Assembly (NCBI RefSeq): GCF_029023725.1
Contig: NZ_CP119075.1
Location: 5,017,501 to 5,081,500 of the forward strand
DNA: 64,000 bases
Origin: Synoicihabitans lomoniglobus
GTDB lineage: Bacteria > Verrucomicrobiota > Verrucomicrobiia > Opitutales > Opitutaceae
Direction: 5' to 3'
Shown in pieces: positions 32,488 through 42,597 of this stretch (the first letter of the stretch is position 1; each line of letters opens with the position of its first letter). The position numbers and the translations under genes were made by a program. The notes beneath the pieces were generated by a model that was not told where the DNA came from, ran no database searches, and saw nothing but the letters and a program-made list of their open reading frames with translations.

Positions 32488-32981
32488 AGAGCATCATTGC
32501 AACGATCGTGATCATTGCCGCCGTGGTGGGCGGATTGTGGTGGTTCACCGACCAGCAAAACCAGCGGGCGCAGGCCGAGGCGGAAGTCGCCCGCCTGGCG
32601 GCGATCGAGAATACGCGGGCGGAGCGCCTGGCTTTGTTTGGCGAGGCGGCGCTGGCGGAGGGTATCGAGTGGTCCGACACGGGCATGGGCATGCTGCGAA
32701 TCGAAGAAGGCACAGGGTCGCGACCCTATCCGGGTGCGTATGTGAAATTCAACTACGTCGTGCGGTTGAAGGACGGCGTCGAAGTGCAGCGCACGGAAAA
32801 GCCGACCGAGGCTCGGATCGGCCAGATGGTGCCAGGGATGTCATCGGGACTGCAGCAGATGAAAACCGGGGGGCGCGCGGTGTTGTTCATTCCCCCCAAG
32901 CTGGGTTACGGCGGTTCGGCCTATGGTCCGATTCCGGCGAACGCGGGGTTGATCTTCGAGGTCGAACTTTTACCCAATTAG
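32484..32981 (+). CDS. Membrane-anchored FKBP-type peptidyl-prolyl isomerase
   Basis: A 165-residue protein with an N-terminal membrane anchor (about 3-22), a short helical linker, then an FKBP domain (about 60-165) with GAYVKFNYVVRLKDG, MSSGLQQMKTGGRAVLFIPP and LGYGG near the end of the domain. It should catalyse prolyl isomerisation of periplasmic proteins. Its stop overlaps by four bases that of the convergent PEP-CTERM gene (32978-32981). Confidence 0.88.
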   Translation: MKSIIATIVIIAAVVGGLWWFTDQQNQRAQAEAEVARLAAIENTRAERLALFGEAALAEGIEWSDTGMGMLRIEEGTGSRPYPGAYVKFNYVVRLKDGVEVQRTEKPTEARIGQMVPGMSSGLQQMKTGGRAVLFIPPKLGYGGSAYGPIPANAGLIFEVELLPN

Positions 32982-35900
32982 GGCCGACGATGGCGGCGGT
33001 TTCGCAGGATCAGCATGAAACCGCCCGTCATCATGAGCGCCCAGGTGGAGGGCTCGGGAATGGGTTGGAAATCGGAGAGCGTGACCGACAATGGATGGTA
33101 GGTGACCGCGTAGGAGCCGAGTCCGTCGAAGGACGTGAGCCGGGTGCCGATCGGCAGGTTGTCGAAAGTGCCGGTGAGGCCGGTGGTGGCGGTGAACAGC
33201 GTGAAGGTGTCGGTCGCCAGAATCGTGTCCTGAAAGCTGTTGGTGAAGCGCACCTGCAAATCGCCGCTGAGCGCCAGCGTATCTGCCAACACATTACCGT
33301 AGTCGGTGGTGGCGTTGGTGCCGCCGATCTCGATGCGAATGGTGGTGTCGCTGTTGAGGGTGAGAATGGAGTCGAAGTTCAGCGTGCCTTCGTGAGGTGA
33401 GAACGTGGCGGCGGCGAAGGTGGTGGGACCGAAGACCGATCCGTGGCCGTTGAAGGAGCCCCCGTTGATGTTGATGGTGCCAGCGGTGAAGGAGCCGCCC
33501 TCGATCTCGATTTCGCCCGTGTTTTGGGTGAAGGTGTGGCCCCCGAGGGTCAGAGAACTGTCATCGCGAACGATGAGGTTGTGGTTGTTGTTCAGCGCGT
33601 CGTTGAAAATGAGTCCGCCGCTTCCGGAGGCTTCGAGGGTGCCGCTATTGTTGAGCGGGTTGCTCAGGTCGACGGTGAGCGCGGTGGTGCTGTCGGCGGT
33701 GATGGTGCCGTGGTTGACCAGATGGAGTTGGTTGGCGCCGAGTTGACCTCCGCCGCGGATGGTTTGATCGGAGTCCACGGTCAGGGTGGTGGCGCTGTCG
33801 GCGCCGTAGATCCGCGCGGCGGTGCCGGTGAGTTGAGTCGTGCCGCCGGATCCGGTCAGCGTGGCACCGGCGGCGTCGATGACGAGGTTGGTGAAAGAGC
33901 CGCTGGAGGTGATCGCGAAGGTTCCCTGGTGGTTGATGCTGTTTTTGAGATAAACCGAAATGGTGTTGGGCACCGTGAGCAGGGAGCCGGTCGAAATGGT
34001 GACGCCGTCGAGCGTGCTGGCCGCTCCCGAAAAATTGACCGGTCCGGTCAGGGTGCCGTCATGGATGGTCGATCCGGCGAGGCTGATGTCCGACCCGGAG
34101 TCGGCGGTGAGGTTGCCGCCGGTGTTGGTGACGTTTGTGCCCAATAGGAGCAGCGTGCCGCCGGATTGCGCCCTGATGGTGCCGGTATTGGTCAGGCCGT
34201 TGCTGAGCTGTAGCTGTAGCGTTTGGCCGGATACATTGGCGGTGATGGTGTCCTGATTAACCAGATGGAGCTGATTGACGCCGAGTTGGCCGTAGCCCGC
34301 GAGGGTTTGATCCTGAACCGTGAGGGTGGTGCTCGCGGTTGAACCGAAGATACGGTCGCCGGTGGCGCTCAGCGTGATCGTGCCACCGCCGGTCAAGGTC
34401 AGGCCGCCCGGCCCGGCGACGAGATTGGTGAGACTGCCGCTGGAAAGCAGGTTGACCGTGCCCGGATTGTGCAGGGTGCCGTCGAACGTCGCGGTCGTGG
34501 CGTTTTGGATGTTGAACGTCGTTTCGCTGTCGAATGAGACGTTGGTGTAGTTGCTGTTCGACGTGTTGAAGAGACCGGCGGTGGCGGCGCTCTGGAGTTG
34601 GCCGCCGGCAATATTGACGCCGCTGAATTCCACCCGAGCGGTATCAAGGGCTTTGATGGTGCCGGTGTTGTTGCTGAAGTCGCCATCGCTGAGGACCAGG
34701 GTGGCGCCGTTGCGGGCTTGCAGGGTGCCCTGATTGGCGACGCCGGTTCCGCTGGGGTCAATCGTGAGGGCGACGGTGCTGTCGGTGGCTTCGATGGTGG
34801 CGCGGTTGTCGATTTGGAGCACGTTTACTCCGAGCTGACCCGAGCCGCTGACGGTATTGTCCAGGTTGGTCAGGGTGGTGCCGGCAGAACTGCCATAGAT
34901 ACGATTGGCGGAACGGGCTCCGAGTGCGATCGTGCCGCCGCCGGAGAGGGAGAGTCCGGCGGAGTCGATGACGAAATTGGTGAGGGAGCCGCTGGACTCG
35001 AGGCTCACGGTGCCGACGTTGTTGAGGGTGGAGGCGAAAGTCGCGGTGGAGGCGTTGAGAATCGTGAGGGTCGATGCGGCCGTAAGCGTGATGCCATCGA
35101 ACGTGTTGGCGCCGCTGGAGCGCAGACTGCCGCCGATGGACGAATCCAACGTGCCGCCTGTCACCGCGCTGTCGGAGATGGAAAAGATGGCGCCGGTGCC
35201 GTTGGTGGACAGGGTGCCGCCGGCGTTGGCGACGATGGAACCGGAGAGACTGAGGGTCGATCCGGCGTCGGCCCGCAGGGTTCCGGTATTGGTCAAGCCG
35301 TCGGTCGAGACATCGACGACGAGGGCGGTGGCATCGTTGGCGACGACGGTGCCGTGGTTGGTGAAACCCATGAGGTTGAGGCCGAGTTGGCCGCCGCCGC
35401 TGATGGTGTTGTTATTGTTGATGAGGCGCCCACCGTTGGTGCCATAGATGCGGTTGCCGGGGTGATTTTCGAGAACCAGTGAGCCGCCGCCGGAGAGGCT
35501 GACGTTTCCGCCGTCGACGATGAGGTTGGTGAGCGAGCCGCCTGAATTGAGCGTGATCGAGCCGGTGTTCACATACGTGCCGGTGGAAGGCAGTATGAGT
35601 GTCCCGGTGTTTAGGATTTCCAGTTCGGTCGTGGCGGAGAGGTTGACGGTGCCGCCGAGCGTGGAGCTGCCGGTATTCACGCTGATCAGGGAATTCGTGG
35701 CGGTGGTGACCTGGGTATTCGATAGGGTGGCGCTGGTGAGTTCCAGTTGGGCGGAAGGGCCGAGATCGACGTTGCCGCCCTCGATGGTGGCGGAGGTGAC
35801 CCCGAGGTGCGAACCTGACTGGGCGCGAATGAGGGCGCTGGTGTTGGTGAAGGTGCCGTCGGAAAGCGCGAGGGTGCCACCGTTGACGGATTGCAAGGTG

Positions 35901-37600
35901 CCGGTGTTGGTCAGTCCGCCGGTATCGTGAGGATCAATGGTGAGCGTGTTGCCACTGGAATTGGCTTCGATGGTCGCCTGGTTGATGATCGTAATATCGT
36001 CGGCCCCGATTGATCCGTAGCCTCGCAGGGTGTTGGTCTGATTGGTCAGCGTCGGTGTGCCGGAGCCCATGATACGGGCGGGATTTCCGGAAAAGGTGAT
36101 AGTGCCCGTGCCGCTGAGCGTGGTGCCGCCGGAGCTCACGATCAAATTGGTGAAAGCGCCGGAGCTGGTGACCTCGATCGCTCCATGGTTGGTGATGTTG
36201 CCGTCGAGGGTCAGGTTGGTCGCGTTCGGGATTTTCAGAACTGAACCGCCGGGGATGGTGAGTCCGGCAAGGATGTTGCTGCCGACGTTGATGATTTGGC
36301 CGGTGCCGGAGGAGAAGAGGTTACCGCCCGAGATGGTGGCGCCACCGCCGAGATTGAGCGTGCCGTCGGTGGTGCCGATGTTGTTCGTATTGGTGAAGGT
36401 GCCATCGAGGAGGGTGAGCACTCCGCCAGCGGCGGTGTTAATCGTGCCGCTGTTCGTGAAGCCGGTGCCGTCGTCGGGGTCGATGCTCAGGGCGGTGCTG
36501 TAGAGCGCGGTGATGGTCCCGGTATTGGTGACTTGCAGGGTGTCGACGGACAATTGACCCGCGCCTTGAATCGTGCAGGCGTTGGTGAGGTGGGCACCCG
36601 CCACAGCGCTGAGAATGCGATTGGCGCTGCTGTTGCTGAGCGCGACCGTTCCTCCCGCGAGGGTTGCCCCGCCGCTGGCGATGATGAGGTTGGTTAATGA
36701 ACCACTCGAGCTGAGCTCCAAGGTGCCGCTGTTGGTGAAGGTGTCGGCGAGATTGAGGCTGGAGGCGTTGAGCACGCGCAGCGTTGACCCGGATGAAAGG
36801 TTGATGCTCCCGCTGAGGGAATTCGTGCCCGTGGTTTGGATAATGCCGCTGCCGCTGGTGCCGAGGGTGCCGCCAACGATGGTGACGCCGGAGTTGAGCA
36901 GGACCGTCGCGCCATTTTGGGCCAGAATCTGACCAACGGTATTGGTAAACGTGCCGTCGGTGAGCTGGAGGTTTGCATTGGCGGCGGCTTGGAGGGTGCC
37001 GGTGTTGGTGAAGCCGCCGGTATCGTCGGGATTGACCACCAGGTTGGTGGCATAGAGAGCGGAAACGGTGCCGGAGTTTACGAGGGTCAGGCTGTCATTG
37101 CCGAGGTGACCCGCCCCCTGAATCAGCGCCTGATTGTTGAGAACATCCGAGCCGCTTACGCCCTGGATGCGGTTGGCGCTGCTGTTACTGAGGTTGATCG
37201 CTCCAGCGCCCGTTACCTGGAGGGTTCCACCGCTGACGATGAGATTCGTCAGTGAGCCGGCTGATGAAAGGCTCAGTGAAGCATTTGTGAGCAGATTCAA
37301 TACGGAGCTATCAGAACTCGCATCGAAGGTGAGGCTGTTTGCGTTGGTGATCGACACCGTATCGTTGCTGCCGATTTGCAGGTCGTTGACCACAGTCGTG
37401 GCATCGACGGTGACGACGAGGCTGAAGGATCCCAGCGGATCGATGACCGCGGAGTCGGTGCCCGTGGGGAGAATGGAGCCCGCCCAGTTAATTCCCGTGT
37501 TCCACGAGCCCGAACCTATGAGCCACTCAACATCCAACGTGATTGCGCGCAGCGAAGACGTGCAGGTCACAATGAATAGTATGAGTATACGGATGGGCAT
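32978..37600 (-). CDS. Giant PEP-CTERM repeat protein (autotransporter-like adhesin repeats)
   Basis: A 1,540-residue secreted protein. After a signal peptide (1-19, ending SLRA) come seven long imperfect repeats of about 200 residues. Each has a SGSLTNLIV-like start and an NTGTL / FTNT element, rich in Ser, Thr, Asn and Gly, as in beta-helical filamentous adhesin-like passenger domains. The C-terminus is a PEP-CTERM sorting signal: PIPEPSTWALMMTGGFMLIL then a basic tail RNRRHRRP. The PEP-CTERM signal should be recognised by an exosortase, none of which is in the window. A likely cell-surface or extracellular matrix protein. Confidence 0.88.
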   Translation of the reverse strand: MPIRILILFIVTCTSSLRAITLDVEWLIGSGSWNTGINWAGSILPTGTDSAVIDPLGSFSLVVTVDATTVVNDLQIGSNDTVSITNANSLTFDASSDSSVLNLLTNASLSLSSAGSLTNLIVSGGTLQVTGAGAINLSNSSANRIQGVSGSDVLNNQALIQGAGHLGNDSLTLVNSGTVSALYATNLVVNPDDTGGFTNTGTLQAAANANLQLTDGTFTNTVGQILAQNGATVLLNSGVTIVGGTLGTSGSGIIQTTGTNSLSGSINLSSGSTLRVLNASSLNLADTFTNSGTLELSSSGSLTNLIIASGGATLAGGTVALSNSSANRILSAVAGAHLTNACTIQGAGQLSVDTLQVTNTGTITALYSTALSIDPDDGTGFTNSGTINTAAGGVLTLLDGTFTNTNNIGTTDGTLNLGGGATISGGNLFSSGTGQIINVGSNILAGLTIPGGSVLKIPNATNLTLDGNITNHGAIEVTSSGAFTNLIVSSGGTTLSGTGTITFSGNPARIMGSGTPTLTNQTNTLRGYGSIGADDITIINQATIEANSSGNTLTIDPHDTGGLTNTGTLQSVNGGTLALSDGTFTNTSALIRAQSGSHLGVTSATIEGGNVDLGPSAQLELTSATLSNTQVTTATNSLISVNTGSSTLGGTVNLSATTELEILNTGTLILPSTGTYVNTGSITLNSGGSLTNLIVDGGNVSLSGGGSLVLENHPGNRIYGTNGGRLINNNNTISGGGQLGLNLMGFTNHGTVVANDATALVVDVSTDGLTNTGTLRADAGSTLSLSGSIVANAGGTLSTNGTGAIFSISDSAVTGGTLDSSIGGSLRSSGANTFDGITLTAASTLTILNASTATFASTLNNVGTVSLESSGSLTNFVIDSAGLSLSGGGTIALGARSANRIYGSSAGTTLTNLDNTVSGSGQLGVNVLQIDNRATIEATDSTVALTIDPSGTGVANQGTLQARNGATLVLSDGDFSNNTGTIKALDTARVEFSGVNIAGGQLQSAATAGLFNTSNSNYTNVSFDSETTFNIQNATTATFDGTLHNPGTVNLLSSGSLTNLVAGPGGLTLTGGGTITLSATGDRIFGSTASTTLTVQDQTLAGYGQLGVNQLHLVNQDTITANVSGQTLQLQLSNGLTNTGTIRAQSGGTLLLLGTNVTNTGGNLTADSGSDISLAGSTIHDGTLTGPVNFSGAASTLDGVTISTGSLLTVPNTISVYLKNSINHQGTFAITSSGSFTNLVIDAAGATLTGSGGTTQLTGTAARIYGADSATTLTVDSDQTIRGGGQLGANQLHLVNHGTITADSTTALTVDLSNPLNNSGTLEASGSGGLIFNDALNNNHNLIVRDDSSLTLGGHTFTQNTGEIEIEGGSFTAGTININGGSFNGHGSVFGPTTFAAATFSPHEGTLNFDSILTLNSDTTIRIEIGGTNATTDYGNVLADTLALSGDLQVRFTNSFQDTILATDTFTLFTATTGLTGTFDNLPIGTRLTSFDGLGSYAVTYHPLSVTLSDFQPIPEPSTWALMMTGGFMLILRNRRHRRP

Positions 37601-37889: not shown

Positions 37890-40001
37890 TCAATAACCCA
37901 AGGCGGTTCCGGTTTGATAAATGGCCAGGCAAAGCAGCCAGGCGAACCCGGTTTGATAGCCGATTTGAAACAAGGGCCAACGCCATGAGTTGGTTTCGCG
38001 TTTCACTACGGCGACGGTGCTCACGCATTGCATGGCAAAAACGTAAAACACCATGAGAGTGAGGCAAACCAACGGAGTGAACAGTTGGCGACCGTCGGGC
38101 CATGTGGCCTCGTGGAGAGCGGCCAACAGAGGAGCGGTGTTTTCTTCGTCCTCCTCCACGTTGAAGACCACGCTGGTCGCACTTACGAAAACCTCGCGCG
38201 CAGCGAACGAGCTGATCAGGCCAATGCCAATTTCCCAATTAAATCCCAAAGGTTTGATGACCGGCTCGATGAAATGGCCCGCTTGGCCGGCGAAGCTTTG
38301 GGCGATTTGTTCTCCCGGAGAGGCTTCCGGTCCGGCTTTGGGATAAGCAGTCAGGAACCACAGAATGATGGATATGCCCAGGATGATGGTGCCGGCTCGT
38401 TTGAGGAACAGGCCTCCGCGTTCGAGCATTTGCATGAAAACGTCCTTGATTCGCGGTAGCCGGTAGGGCGGCAGTTCCATGATCATCAGCGAGGGTTCAC
38501 CTCGAAGCAGGGTCCGTTTAAAAACCCAGGCGAAACCAAATGCGCCAAACGTGCCGAGCGCATACATCAGCAACATGAGTCCGACTTTCGTCATGATCGG
38601 CACGTCTCCAGACGGAACGAGTGCGGCGATCATCAGCAAGTATACCGGCAGACGCGCGGAACAGCTCATGAACGGAGCGACGAGGATGGTGACCAAACGA
38701 TCTTTGGGGTTTTCAATCGTGCGTGTCGCCATGATGCCTGGAATCGCGCAGGCATAGGAGCTTAACAAGGGGATAAATGATCGACCGTTTAGTCCCACCC
38801 GGCTCATCAGCCGATCCATGATGAAGGCGGCGCGGGCCATGTAACCCGTGCTCTCGAGCAGACCCACAAAGAAGAATAGAATCAGAATCTGGGGCAGGAA
38901 AATTACCACTCCACCCACGCCGGCAATGGCCCCATCGGTGATGAGATCGCGGAGATCCCCGGGCGGCATATGGTTCTTAACGGAGTCACTGAGGGCGGCG
39001 ACCAATGAGTCGATGAGGTCCATCGGATACTCCGCCAGCGTAAAAATGCTTAAAAAGAGGGTCGTCATGATCGCGCCCAGCACCAACCAGCCCCCGATGC
39101 CATGGGTGACGACCGCATCGATGCGATCGGAGGCATTCTGGGTGACGGTCGTAGCGCTCTGTTCCGTGGCGTCGGCGGCCAATTCACCGATGATTTCATA
39201 ACGCGCTCCCACCAGCATGGCGGACCAATCCGTGCCTTCATCCTCCCATCGCTTCTTCCACGTTGCGAGAATCTGAGCGGTGCGTTGACTGAGCGGTTGG
39301 GATCCTGAGACGCGAACAGGATCTTGGTCGGTGAGCAGAAGCAGCGCTTCGGCCCGGGCGATCAGAGGTGGTTTTCCGTCACTATCTTGGAGGGAGGCTT
39401 GGAGCTCAGCCACGGCTGAGGAGATGGCCGCCGGAATGTCCCAGCGATGCTTGGGCAACGGTAAATCCGGGCGACTCATCGCGAGTTTGAGCTCGATCAC
39501 TCCCTGACCGCGGGAGGCTTGGGTGGCGATGACGGGAATACCGAGTTGTTTTTCGAGCCGACCGATACGGATTTTGAGACCCGAAGCCGCCGCCACATCC
39601 ATCATGTTGATGACGAGAATTACGGGGCGGCCAAGGTCGAGTATTTGATGAACGAGATACAGGTTTCGTTCGAGATTGGAGGCATCGACGATGCAAACCA
39701 CCCGGTCCGGCATCTGGGTGTCAGCCCGACGGCCGAGAAGAACATCGCGGGTTACCGCTTCGTCCGGCGACCGCGCAGCGAGGGAATACGCCCCCGGCAG
39801 GTCAATCACGGTCATCGGTTGCCCGTGTTGGGAATAGGCAGTGCCGATCTTACGCTCCACCGTCACACCGGGATAGTTGCCCACTTTTTGTTTAAGGCCG
39901 GTCATGGCATTAAACAGCGTCGACTTGCCACAATTAGGGTTTCCGACAAATGCGTAAACCGGGGCACGAGGAGGCGTTTTTACATGCGAAGGCAGGCTCA
40001 T
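37890..40001 (-). CDS. feoB: Ferrous iron transporter FeoB
   Basis: A 703-residue iron(II) transporter. The N-terminal G domain holds GNPNCGKSTLFN (about 21-32), DLPGAYS and NMMDV; a helical GDI-like part follows, then the membrane domain with two Gate motifs (about 310-700). The start overlaps the feoA stop by four bases (ATGA at 39998-40001), so it is translated in coupling. The operon is feoA, feoA, feoB and the small Cys-rich gene. Confidence 0.97.
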   Translation of the reverse strand: MSLPSHVKTPPRAPVYAFVGNPNCGKSTLFNAMTGLKQKVGNYPGVTVERKIGTAYSQHGQPMTVIDLPGAYSLAARSPDEAVTRDVLLGRRADTQMPDRVVCIVDASNLERNLYLVHQILDLGRPVILVINMMDVAAASGLKIRIGRLEKQLGIPVIATQASRGQGVIELKLAMSRPDLPLPKHRWDIPAAISSAVAELQASLQDSDGKPPLIARAEALLLLTDQDPVRVSGSQPLSQRTAQILATWKKRWEDEGTDWSAMLVGARYEIIGELAADATEQSATTVTQNASDRIDAVVTHGIGGWLVLGAIMTTLFLSIFTLAEYPMDLIDSLVAALSDSVKNHMPPGDLRDLITDGAIAGVGGVVIFLPQILILFFFVGLLESTGYMARAAFIMDRLMSRVGLNGRSFIPLLSSYACAIPGIMATRTIENPKDRLVTILVAPFMSCSARLPVYLLMIAALVPSGDVPIMTKVGLMLLMYALGTFGAFGFAWVFKRTLLRGEPSLMIMELPPYRLPRIKDVFMQMLERGGLFLKRAGTIILGISIILWFLTAYPKAGPEASPGEQIAQSFAGQAGHFIEPVIKPLGFNWEIGIGLISSFAAREVFVSATSVVFNVEEDEENTAPLLAALHEATWPDGRQLFTPLVCLTLMVFYVFAMQCVSTVAVVKRETNSWRWPLFQIGYQTGFAWLLCLAIYQTGTALGY

Positions 40002-40243
40002 GGAGTCGGCCCTGTTGTGACCATCACATGATCAGCTTCTGTTTTTCGGAGCGTGAGATTGTAGCCCCGGAATTTGATTTCCAGCGGATCTCCCAGGGGC
40101 GCGGTCCGGACCAGTTTAAGCGCTGTTCCCGGCAGCAGTCCCATTTCACGCAAGCGTAAAAACGCAGCTCCAGTCTTGGGGAAACTATGAAGAGTAGCGG
40201 AGCTACCCACTGTGAGCTGAGATAATGCAATGGGTTCAACCAT
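39998..40243 (-). CDS. feoA: FeoA domain protein (second copy)
   Basis: An 81-residue SH3-like FeoA protein: IALSQLTVGSSATLHSF, then FLRLREMGLLPGTALKLVR and GDPLEIKFRGYNLTLRKTEA, the usual FeoA order. It should bind FeoB and regulate or assist it. ATG 40243 is chosen because upstream codons belong to the other feoA. It overlaps feoB by four bases and is 28 bases after the first feoA. Confidence 0.92.
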   Translation of the reverse strand: MVEPIALSQLTVGSSATLHSFPKTGAAFLRLREMGLLPGTALKLVRTAPLGDPLEIKFRGYNLTLRKTEADHVMVTTGPTP

Positions 40244-40271
40244 GAGACATGCAATCGGTTCAGAGATGGGC

Positions 40272-40523
40272 TCAGCCCAGGTATTTGTCCGTCTGTTTGA
40301 CGAGAATCTGGCTGGCCGCGCGATGACTGAGGGCAATGCGCGTGCCGTTGACGCGGCAAATAATGGTGGTTTGTCCTGAAATTTTGGTGACAAGCGCTGA
40401 TTCCCCAAAACCAAGTTCGCGCACATGTTGGCGAAACGTTCCCTCTCCGATCAGTTCGGCGACAAATCCGCTCTCTCCGGCCGGGAGTTGGCATAGCGGT
40501 ATGATGTTGGCGGGTATTGTCAT
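40272..40523 (-). CDS. feoA: FeoA domain protein (first copy)
   Basis: An 83-residue FeoA domain protein (PLCQLPAGESGFVAELIGE, VRELGFGESALVTKIS, GTRIALSHRAASQILV). It differs clearly in sequence from the second copy, so this is not a recent duplication. First gene of the iron operon, with an operator-like palindrome in its promoter (40544-40556). Confidence 0.92.
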   Translation of the reverse strand: MTIPANIIPLCQLPAGESGFVAELIGEGTFRQHVRELGFGESALVTKISGQTTIICRVNGTRIALSHRAASQILVKQTDKYLG

Positions 40524-40590: not shown

Positions 40591-40620
40591 AAAAAAAGCG
40601 CACCCGATCTGGGTGCGCTT
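40591..40620 (-). terminator. Intrinsic terminator of the Ala-rich repeat protein gene
   Basis: On the minus strand AAGCGCACCC (40620-40611), a five-base loop and GGGTGCGCTT (40605-40596) form a perfect 10-pair stem followed by a T-tract (40595-40591). It lies 28 bases after the stop of the repeat protein gene and just upstream of the feo promoter, insulating it. Confidence 0.9.
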
Positions 40621-40648: not shown

Positions 40649-42001
40649 TTAGCTGGACGTGCTCACATTGCCTACCTCATCAAGGTCGGGAATGTCGGGA
40701 ACTTCTGCGGGGACTTCCGGCGCCTCTTCGGGAGCTTCAGGAGCTTCCTCGACTGGAGTTTCCTCAGCCGGAGTTTCTTCAGCAGGCGCTTCTTCAGCAG
40801 GCGCTTCCTCTTCGGGAGCTTCTTCTTCGGCAGGAGCTTCTTCTTCAGCAGCCTCTTCTTCAGCGGTTTCCTCAGATTCTTCAGGTTCGGGTTCTGCCGT
40901 TTGGGTCTCAGCTTCTGCTTGAGCTGCACCTTCGCTGGCTCCTTGGTTCGCAGCTGCCGTAACGGCTTCGGGGTCCAATCCGGATTCGGCGGCACCTTCG
41001 GCGGCCCCTTGACTTGCCCCGCTGGAGGCGGCGGCGGCGGCGGCGGCAGTATCACCTCCGGTTTCTGCGGTTGCGGTGACGGCACCTCGGGAAGCACCGG
41101 AGGAAGCGGCAGCAGCAACGGATGACGAGTCGCTGCCGGTGGCGGCGGCTCCGGTCACGGCACCCCGAGTGGCTCCAGAAGAAGCGGCGGCAGCGGCAGC
41201 GGTGGTATCACCGCCCGTAGCGGCAGCTCCTCGAACAGCACCCTGGGTGGCACCGGAAGAAGCGGCGGATGCTGCGGCAGCGGTGTCGCCACCGGTTGCG
41301 GCGGCAGCACGAACAGCACCATTTGTAGCACCCGATGAAGCAGCGGAAGCCGCGGCGGCGGTATCACCACCGGAAGCGGCAGCGGCGGTCACGGCACCTT
41401 GAGTAGCACCGGAAGATGCGGCGGAGGCGGCGGCAGCGGTATCAGAACCGGAAGCGGCGGCGGCGGCTACGGCGCCTTGGGTGGCACCAGAAGAAGCAGC
41501 AGAAGCAGCGGCGGCAGTGTCACCGCCCGAAGCGGCAGCGGCGGTGACGGCACCTTGGGTAGCGCCGGAGGATGCTGCGGCGGCGGCGGCGGAAGTATCT
41601 CCTCCGGTAGCAGCGGCAGCCGCGACAGCACCTTGGGTGGCACCAGAAGAGGCGGCGGACGCAGCTGCATCCGTGTCACCGCCTGCGGCGGCGACTGTTT
41701 CAGTGACTGATTCGGTGACCGTTGCCGCAATGGCAGCAACAATGGTGGTGTCACCTCCGGCTTCGATTGCTACGTCGGATACGATTGATTGAACCGCGGC
41801 TTGAACCGCGGCTGGGTCGTTTACATTCACACCAGCGGCGGCGAGCGCTTGAGCTACAATAGTTTTAGCATTTGCGCCACCTGCTCGAATCGCTGCCCGT
41901 TGGGCAGGTGAAAGTGTAACGGTCGCGGTTTGGGCCAAGACGACGGAACTGATCAACGTGCTGATCAGAAGGCCTTTAATTAGGAGGCTAAGCTTGTTCA
42001 T
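40649..42001 (-). CDS. Secreted Ala-rich 26-residue repeat protein with acidic tail
   Basis: A 450-residue protein with a signal peptide (1-23, ending VLA). Residues 24-106 are a helical Ala-rich lead including LSPAQRAAIRAGGANAKTIV. Residues 107-366 are ten tandem 26-residue units of the pattern GGDT-AAAASAASSGATQGAV-AAAAT, the last two more diverged. Residues 367-450 are a Glu/Pro/Ala-rich acidic tail ending in VGNVSTSS. I know of no named family. The gene has its own strong terminator. Because every strand and frame of this repeat is open, there are spurious frames in the region. Confidence 0.8.
   Translation of the reverse strand: MNKLSLLIKGLLISTLISSVVLAQTATVTLSPAQRAAIRAGGANAKTIVAQALAAAGVNVNDPAAVQAAVQSIVSDVAIEAGGDTTIVAAIAATVTESVTETVAAAGGDTDAAASAASSGATQGAVAAAAATGGDTSAAAAAASSGATQGAVTAAAASGGDTAAAASAASSGATQGAVAAAAASGSDTAAAASAASSGATQGAVTAAAASGGDTAAAASAASSGATNGAVRAAAATGGDTAAAASAASSGATQGAVRGAAATGGDTTAAAAAASSGATRGAVTGAAATGSDSSSVAAAASSGASRGAVTATAETGGDTAAAAAAASSGASQGAAEGAAESGLDPEAVTAAANQGASEGAAQAEAETQTAEPEPEESEETAEEEAAEEEAPAEEEAPEEEAPAEEAPAEETPAEETPVEEAPEAPEEAPEVPAEVPDIPDLDEVGNVSTSS
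40904..41683. repeat. Ten tandem 78-base repeats coding the 26-residue units
   Basis: The 780-base array encodes residues 107-366 of the Ala-rich protein. Units are not identical at DNA level; third positions vary while the peptide pattern is kept, which suggests selection on the protein. Confidence 0.75.
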
Positions 42002-42130: not shown

Positions 42131-42163
42131 GCAGAAAACCGGCCAGAGGGACCGGTGTTCTGC
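42131..42163 (-). terminator. Terminator of the ATP synthase operon
   Basis: GCAGAA (42131-42136) and ACCGG (42138-42142) pair with CCGGT (42152-42156) and TTCTGC (42158-42163), one mismatch in the middle. On the minus strand TTTAGGG follows. It lies 20 bases after the atpC stop. Confidence 0.75.
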
Positions 42164-42183: not shown

Positions 42184-42597
42184 CTATCGTTTGCGTTTCT
42201 TGGCAAAAAGTTGTGCGACGGAAAACCGGACGACACTCTCCAGTCGTTCAATTTCGGCCGGATCGATCTTACTATTCTTGGCCTCTTCCAAGGCCAGTTG
42301 TGCTCGGGCGCAGGCCTTTTCCACCGCATCTTGGTCGATGGCACTTTCTTCAATGGCATGTTCCGCCAGCACTGAAACCTTATCCCCTTGGACTTGGACA
42401 AAACCGTCGCCCACGATCAGAGCCTCGACGTTGGTGCCTTTGGTTACACGCAGCTCTCCGTCTAAAACCTGCGAGAGCAGAGGCAAGTGACCGGGTAGAA
42501 TTCCAATTTCGCCTTCGACCGTAGGTATAACAACATTGTCGATGGTGTCGGAATAGACCCGGGCTTCCGGGGTAACGATTTCGAGAGTCAAAGGCAT
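42184..42597 (-). CDS. atpC: F1Fo ATP synthase epsilon subunit
   Basis: A 137-residue epsilon subunit: beta-sandwich (about 1-85, from MPLTLEIVTPEARVYSDTID and including GEIGILPGHLPLLS) and two C-terminal helices with ACARAQLALEEAKNS. It couples F1 rotation with the c ring and can inhibit the enzyme. Last gene of the atp operon, 13 bases after atpD. Confidence 0.96.
   Translation of the reverse strand: MPLTLEIVTPEARVYSDTIDNVVIPTVEGEIGILPGHLPLLSQVLDGELRVTKGTNVEALIVGDGFVQVQGDKVSVLAEHAIEESAIDQDAVEKACARAQLALEEAKNSKIDPAEIERLESVVRFSVAQLFAKKRKR

Follow-up and report, generated by a model that had tools for sequence, protein, structure and literature searches.

A putative secreted helical-repeat protein of Synoicihabitans lomoniglobus shares a short C-terminal tag with one class of Opitutaceae FecR-domain proteins

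Introduction

In Campylobacterota, FecR-domain outer membrane proteins are clustered with CHASE2 adenylate cyclases, and the two probably belong to one pathway (PMC9239204). In Sinorhizobium, an outer membrane barrel mediates the response of CHASE2 cyclases to a protein from outside (PMC13001267). The targets of Sinorhizobium Clr include the FecR-domain protein SMc02177, and the results reported were unsupportive of a role of these targets in signal perception (PMC5498481). A biofilm operon of Burkholderia combines LysM-FecR with a CHASE2 histidine kinase (PMC5192318). A further group of described systems comprises the C-terminal sorting tags of the PEP-CTERM/exosortase, GlyGly-CTERM, and MYXO-CTERM types (PMC1569441, PMC3237569, and PMC11980579).

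We analyzed a stretch of 64,000 nucleotides from Synoicihabitans lomoniglobus (contig NZ_CP119075.1; referred to here as the window), in which a gene for an Ala-rich repeat protein is located between atpC and the feo genes. The C-terminal 14 residues of this protein, which were overlooked in the initial annotation of the window, are its most informative part. Judging from sequence comparison, what is new at this locus is a shared C-terminal tag that is conserved at the peptide level rather than the repeats. No description of the motif was found in the open full-text literature, where absence is no proof.

Results

The gene encodes an Ala-rich repeat protein with a putative export signal

A complete open reading frame (ORF) on the minus strand (40649..42001; ATG start) encodes a putative secreted, Ala-rich repeat protein of 450 amino acids, as judged from the ORF list, the translation, and the relatives. 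Residues 1 to 23 (41933..42001, minus strand) were read by eye as a signal peptide, MNKLSLLIKGLLISTLISSVVLA/Q, with a likely signal peptidase I cleavage site VLA/Q. An A-Q junction was present at the end of the signal peptide in 9 of 10 aligned rows, two of which were FecR proteins. The initial annotation had called the protein secreted, and an export signal is indeed present by eye; a signal peptide indicates only export across the inner membrane. The whole protein contains no Cys, and thus the lipobox Cys of a lipoprotein is absent. The signal peptide is followed by a predicted helical region (about residues 30 to 106; 41684..41914, minus strand), which was taken from an AlphaFold model and is aligned in the relatives. 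Ten 26-residue units of the GGDTAAAASAASSGATQGAVTAAAAS type, predicted to be alpha-helical, occupy residues 107 to 366 (40904..41683, minus strand; TRF, lag identity, and model). An acidic low-complexity stretch of Glu, Pro, and Ala (about residues 367 to 436; 40694..40903, minus strand; translation and model) leads to the C-terminal tag IPDLDEVGNVSTSS (residues 437 to 450; 40652..40693, minus strand), which recurs without any difference at the end of a FecR-domain protein encoded at an unlinked site of the same genome. The Ala-rich protein with ten 26-residue repeats and an acidic tail that had been annotated here was therefore confirmed.

The upstream neighbor of the gene is atpC (42184..42597, minus strand; PF02823), and the downstream neighbors are feoA, feoA, and feoB (37890..40523, minus strand; PF04023 twice and PF02421). 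The two feoA genes lie in tandem 5′ of feoB (39998-40426 and 40272-40523, minus strand). A repetitive, secreted-type protein of 1,540 amino acids encoded at 32978-37600 (minus strand) has a PEP-CTERM-like tail (Pfam PEP-CTERM E value of 0.016, below the cutoff). On the 3′ side of the repeat-protein gene, a terminator scan and folding revealed an intrinsic-terminator-like hairpin (40596..40620) that, read on the minus strand from 40620 to 40596, consists of 10 pairs followed by TTTTT. The 64-nucleotide fold at this site had a z value of -4.05, and none of 200 shuffles was equally stable. The region contained 4 terminator-like sites compared to 3.4 ± 1.8 in the shuffles, i.e., no excess. A terminator-like hairpin after atpC (42138..42156, minus strand), weakly supported because the number of these sites is no higher than in shuffles, would set the repeat-protein gene apart from the atp operon. 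The scan of the region for promoters of the sigma-70 type found 0 (shuffle mean, 0.6). The initial annotation had argued from a strong terminator that the gene is well expressed; the hairpin is there, but high expression does not follow, because a terminator marks the end of a transcript and not its abundance.

The peptide of the repeat array is kept while its codons drift

The identity at lag 26 was 0.73 over residues 82 to 366, and in 2,000 composition shuffles, the best identity across lags 5 to 59 never exceeded 0.34. TRF independently reported a period of 78 bp (41028-41659; 8.1 copies; score of 473). Units 1 to 9 resemble one another closely; unit 10 (GLDPEAVTAAANQGASEGAAQAEAET) and an extra unit of 25 residues, which starts at residue 82 ahead of the array, are both degenerate. 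Comparison of all pairs among the nine close units gave a pS of 0.62 and a pN of 0.15 (Jukes-Cantor dS of 1.29 and dN of 0.16). The codons of the units thus drift while the peptide is kept, which bears out the earlier suggestion that the repeat peptide is under selection. The simple composition of the protein would also be expected if it were the functionless low-complexity translation of a G+C-rich repeat; however, dN is well below dS among the units, the relatives are found at a conserved locus, and the changes in the tail are silent only (see below), and we regard this possibility as scarcely credible.

The number of repeats differs among relatives, with 10 units here versus about 3 to 4 (by eye) in G002, a genome of the same genus. 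Repeats of the SSGATxGAVxAA type were also found in G156, a genome from another family of the order, in a protein whose end does not carry the tag; therefore, the repeat type is wider than the family Opitutaceae. At this G156 locus (L188), the 26-residue SSGATxGAVxAA repeats directly follow a DINSDGVVDSRD stretch that may be dockerin-like.

The repeats are predicted to be helical and match no known family

Membership of the protein in a known repeat family was looked for in Pfam, NCBIfam, and PDB sequences. All three gave 0 matches at E values up to 1, among them 0 Pfam or NCBIfam profiles, and the statement that the protein belongs to no known family held up. A FecR domain (PF04773 above the Pfam cutoff) was not found in the protein (0 families). 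In an AlphaFold model that was built with six sequences, helices extended throughout the repeats and the acidic stretch was without helix or strand (whole-model mean pLDDT of 61.8). The best-predicted part comprised residues 31 to 120, with block-mean pLDDT values of 85 to 94. The structure prediction that the initial annotation had proposed thus yielded a helical array, but with pLDDT values of only 40 to 62 over most of it (residues 131 to 330). A second model, made for a relative of the G007 type (mean pLDDT of 56.6), contained strands and an unstructured end. The units held two short helices each in the model of the window protein versus longer single ones in the G007-type model. A Foldseek search with the model of the window protein gave 169 matches at E values up to 10, including 2 at E values up to 0.001; among the 50 listed matches, TM-scores ranged from 0.07 to 0.28, and the best were mostly designed helical-repeat assemblies. 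On these models, the Ala-rich 26-residue units are predicted to fold into a stacked helical repeat.

An ice-binding, metal-binding, or protective role of the secreted protein was among the options offered by the initial annotation. The Ala-rich helical composition superficially resembles that of helical antifreeze proteins, and the acidic stretch could weakly bind divalent cations. Helical antifreeze proteins, however, show an 11-residue spacing of Thr, and no Thr row with this spacing was seen by eye in the units, whose period is 26. The protein has neither Cys nor His, most units contain a single Asp, and no PDB relative was found at E values up to 1. In addition, a function of this kind leaves the shared tag unexplained. 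Ice or metal binding is thus unsupported, and we consider such a function very improbable.

The repeat gene occupies a conserved position in few lineages

Relatives of the repeat protein (E values up to 0.001) were found in 5 of the 7 other genomes of the genus (G001, G002, G005, G006, and G007) and were not found at this threshold in G003 and G004. All five genomes with a relative have the gene between ATP synthase genes and feoB. G007 contains two tandem copies between atpD and feoB (L053). In G005 (L006), ACG was seen by eye in place of the ATG start of the others, which is either an error in the assembly or an atypical start. A family search of 200 genomes with one relative (L113) resulted in matches in 8 genomes, representing 2 of 49 Opitutaceae genera; G006 fell below the cutoff of this search. 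SJ16 (L113; 100% identity with the G429 match) belongs to the second genus, and a shared start suggests that UBA3033 (L122), where the gene is split into two ORFs, probably does so too. A protein query against named genomes returned 594 stretches, none of which was confirmed. Another weak match, on C10 of G001, contained no Ala-rich frame that passed the filter. The alignment of the C-terminal region (A1) gave matches in 0 of 273 genomes of the order; this empty search shows little, because three of its four source genomes (G001, G005, and G007) were apparently outside the sample, given that they match another alignment (A2) in a separate search but not in the search of the 273 genomes.

To place the locus in a wider context, 80 FeoB loci were taken, 10 of which had less than 1.2 kb of upstream sequence, leaving 70 usable. 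In 49 of these 70 loci, the 6 kb of sequence upstream contained an AtpC-like ORF of the same orientation, and the gap between atpC and feoB measured at most 1 kb in 38, leaving no room for the repeat gene. The order atpC-feoA-feoB is kept widely, more so than the repeat gene, which occupies the gap in few lineages.

The C-terminal 14 residues are shared with an unlinked FecR-domain protein

Apart from itself, the repeat protein gave a single reported match in its own genome at E values up to 10, with scores computed for 150 of the 346 candidates: a FecR-domain protein (G000:C1:1333881-1335515; PF04773, 28.5 bits versus a cutoff of 24). This paralogue combines an Ala-rich part with an acidic stalk and agrees with the repeat protein in all of the last 14 residues; the match covers the tail. 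Its gene follows a gene for a CHASE2-adenylate cyclase and is unlinked to the repeat-protein gene. Of the 14 codons that encode the identical residues, 9 differ between the two genes, all of them silently. The tail thus reflects a constraint on the peptide and not a recent copy, and recent gene conversion was rejected, as the silent sites are too diverged. The DNA of the genome spells VS[PT]S[ST]-stop in 8 places among 100 listed of 105 pattern matches; two of these end the repeat-protein and FecR genes, and the other six end open stretches of 6 to 95 amino acids over longer ORFs.

Eight of 11 repeat proteins, the window protein included, end in VSPSS (G001, G005, G006, G007 twice, L105, SJ16, and G376). 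The remaining ends are VSTSS (window protein), ASPST (G002), and VSPSGG (UBA3033). A protein of G053, from another family of the order, ends in PLPPVSPSS. The last five residues persist where most of the preceding sequence diverges.

These observations bear on an explanation in which the protein is a structural rod of the periplasm or the surface. Function would then lie in the helical repeat and the acidic stalk, and the tail would be a relic of C-terminal modules that the two genes exchanged long ago and would serve no joint purpose today. The varying number of units among relatives is consistent with a rod, and module exchange fits the finding that the repeat protein and the FecR protein of the own genome, like those of G002, possess an acidic stalk in place of the different C-terminal region found in other relatives. 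However, all 14 residues of the shared tail were kept despite heavily changed silent sites, and the last five residues outlast the divergence of most of the sequence before them. We consider a rod with an inherited tail, which is the second of the rival explanations, to be unlikely.

The tag marks one class of Opitutaceae FecR proteins

A tail was called strict if the C terminus consisted of [VI]S[PRT]S followed by no more than five residues. With its export signal and its VSTSS end, the window protein falls under the definition proposed for exported proteins. In 273 genomes of the order Opitutales, there were 23 FecR loci of the tagged class, comprising 21 closed ORFs and 2 that run off. The closed ORFs showed the strict tail in 13 cases, a looser form in 5, and neither in 3. 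The 13 strict-tail proteins came from 11 genomes and 6 genera, three of them from a single genome, and one had served as a seed of the search profile. The loci were not selected by way of the tail, because the profile matches, apart from the seed, end before it. Class III cyclase motifs, according to patterns that we presume to be diagnostic of the class, were located within 1.5 kb of 11 of the 23 loci.

Within the genus, FecR proteins of the same class end in VSTSS (G000, the own genome), VSPSS (G001 and G007), and VSPST (G002), and the VSPSS end of G005 is found in a second frame. The G005 gene (L186/L077) has an internal TAA and a change of frame in the assembly. FecR relatives of this class went undetected in G003, G004, and G006; the last genome, that of S. 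palmerolidicus (69% complete), contains the repeat protein. When the tails of the two proteins were paired across the five genomes with both, the observed score was reached by 2 of 120 permutations, counting the true pairing. Co-variation of the two tails is suggestive only, because a large share of the signal comes from the own genome and relatedness is uncontrolled.

A chance C-terminal motif was rejected based on the count of pattern matches in the genome given above and on a background of ORF models. The latter comprised 1,192 models in 1.45 Mb (spurious ORFs included) and gave 10 distinct strict-tail models, 9 of which belong to the two families. Because several loci had been chosen for holding such genes, the telling figure is the one unrelated model.

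When FecR proteins of all classes were considered in the genus, 30 PF04773 loci (of 41 matches) included two with a strict tail, one with a loose tail, and one with a tail in another frame only. In the own genome, the tag was present on 1 of 5 FecR matches. CHASE2 genes gave 77 matches in 58 of 132 genomes of the order. We took 40 of these loci; the remainder comprised two loci already known to have the tail (G000 at 1.33 Mb and G114:C13) plus 35 matches that were mostly weaker. FecR-like ORFs, found with a profile from the tagged class and its relatives, were present in 15 of the 40 loci; 2 of them had a strict tail and 2 had a loose one. As the strict tail is rare among all FecR and CHASE2 loci, the tag is a property of a single FecR class of the Opitutaceae, and a tag general to FecR proteins (2 of 30 loci) or to CHASE2 modules (2 of 15 FecR-like ORFs) was rejected. 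Several FecR-like ORFs near CHASE2 genes (L208, L210, L221, and L226) had a different short tail of the TPGAGG or TPGDGKG type (e.g., IDTDETTPGAGG), which is possibly another C-terminal tag.

Discussion

At the level of the sequence, this locus combines an export signal (by eye), a repeat, a shared tail that is conserved as a peptide, and a conserved gene position. We tentatively favor the explanation that the secreted helical-repeat protein docks with its C-terminal tag on the same partner as the tagged FecR proteins. The repeat protein would be exported and extracytoplasmic, and its Ala-rich 26-residue units would form helices that stack into a helical-repeat array. From there, a stalk that is acidic and probably disordered would lead to a short linear tag at the C terminus (…NVSTSS here and …VSPSS in most relatives). 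One class of FecR-domain proteins, often encoded beside CHASE2 adenylate cyclases, ends in the same tag, and both proteins would most likely dock via this tag on a common periplasmic or outer membrane partner. By analogy with the known systems, the tagged FecR proteins may be envelope-side parts of CHASE2-type sensors, and the repeat protein may serve an envelope-sensing module as a spacer, a scaffold, or a competitor. The shared partner or receptor, its compartment, and a role in cAMP signaling are what we infer from the shared tail. Several observations speak against docking. The repeat gene is unlinked to any CHASE2 or FecR gene, its neighbors being atpC and feoA/feoB, whereas the gene of the FecR paralogue adjoins a CHASE2 cyclase gene; furthermore, most FecR proteins are without the tag, G006 has the repeat protein but yielded no FecR relative of the tagged class, the G156 relative lacks the tag, most of the array is modeled with low confidence, and the Sinorhizobium results were unsupportive of a role of the Clr targets in perception. 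No receptor for the tag was found in our analysis. A more far-reaching proposal, which we consider doubtful, is that the [VI]S[PRT]S peptide represents an undescribed Opitutaceae docking or sorting tag of the extracytoplasmic space with a dedicated, co-evolving receptor. The window protein would then be a helical-repeat modulator that, via the tag, competes with or scaffolds the FecR protein of the CHASE2-cyclase system.

The main rival is a C-terminal sorting or export signal that serves placement on the cell surface or a dedicated secretion route. The repeat protein would in that case have its place at the surface or in the matrix and no connection to CHASE2 signaling, and the FecR proteins would share only the route. 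Such a signal would account for a tag that is C-terminal, that sits behind stalks of differing composition in two proteins whose N-terminal parts are unrelated, and that is without regular structure in two predicted models. However, sorting tags usually mark many proteins, and only two tagged genes were found in the own genome. In tags of the PEP-CTERM type, the motif is followed by a hydrophobic helix and a basic end. The window protein has neither; its sequence ends in DLDEVGNVSTSS and gave no PEP-CTERM match in Pfam, and a signal of the PEP-CTERM type was therefore rejected. No processing enzyme was identified, and we regard a sorting signal as somewhat unlikely.

If the tag is real, docking on a common partner would offer a handle on the envelope wiring of FecR/CHASE2-cyclase systems, whose ligands and partners are mostly unknown. 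A C-terminal signal free of a membrane helix would be added to the bacterial sorting and docking tags, and an anonymous low-complexity gene would become a testable member of a signaling set, with the 14-residue peptide usable as bait.

The comparison with known systems reveals likenesses as well as differences. Like the FecR-domain proteins of FecR/CHASE2 systems, the window protein is putatively exported, and one FecR class of the Opitutaceae shares with it the Ala-rich part, the low-complexity stalk, and the tag; unlike them, it has no FecR domain (0 Pfam matches) and is encoded in the atp-feo region and not beside a cyclase. In the Burkholderia operon, a FecR-domain envelope protein is paired with a CHASE2 sensor, as is often seen for the tagged FecR class, but the output enzyme is a different one, and the accessible portion of the report describes no Ala-rich repeat protein or tag. 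With regard to helical tandem-repeat proteins (designed helical repeats and the armadillo and TPR folds), the best Foldseek matches were mostly designed repeats, but with TM-scores and model confidence both low, the resemblance is one of class only. In contrast to the PEP-CTERM, GlyGly-CTERM, and MYXO-CTERM tags, the motif of the window protein forms the very end of the chain, with no transmembrane helix or basic cluster after it; like these tags, it is a short C-terminal signal common to otherwise different exported proteins.
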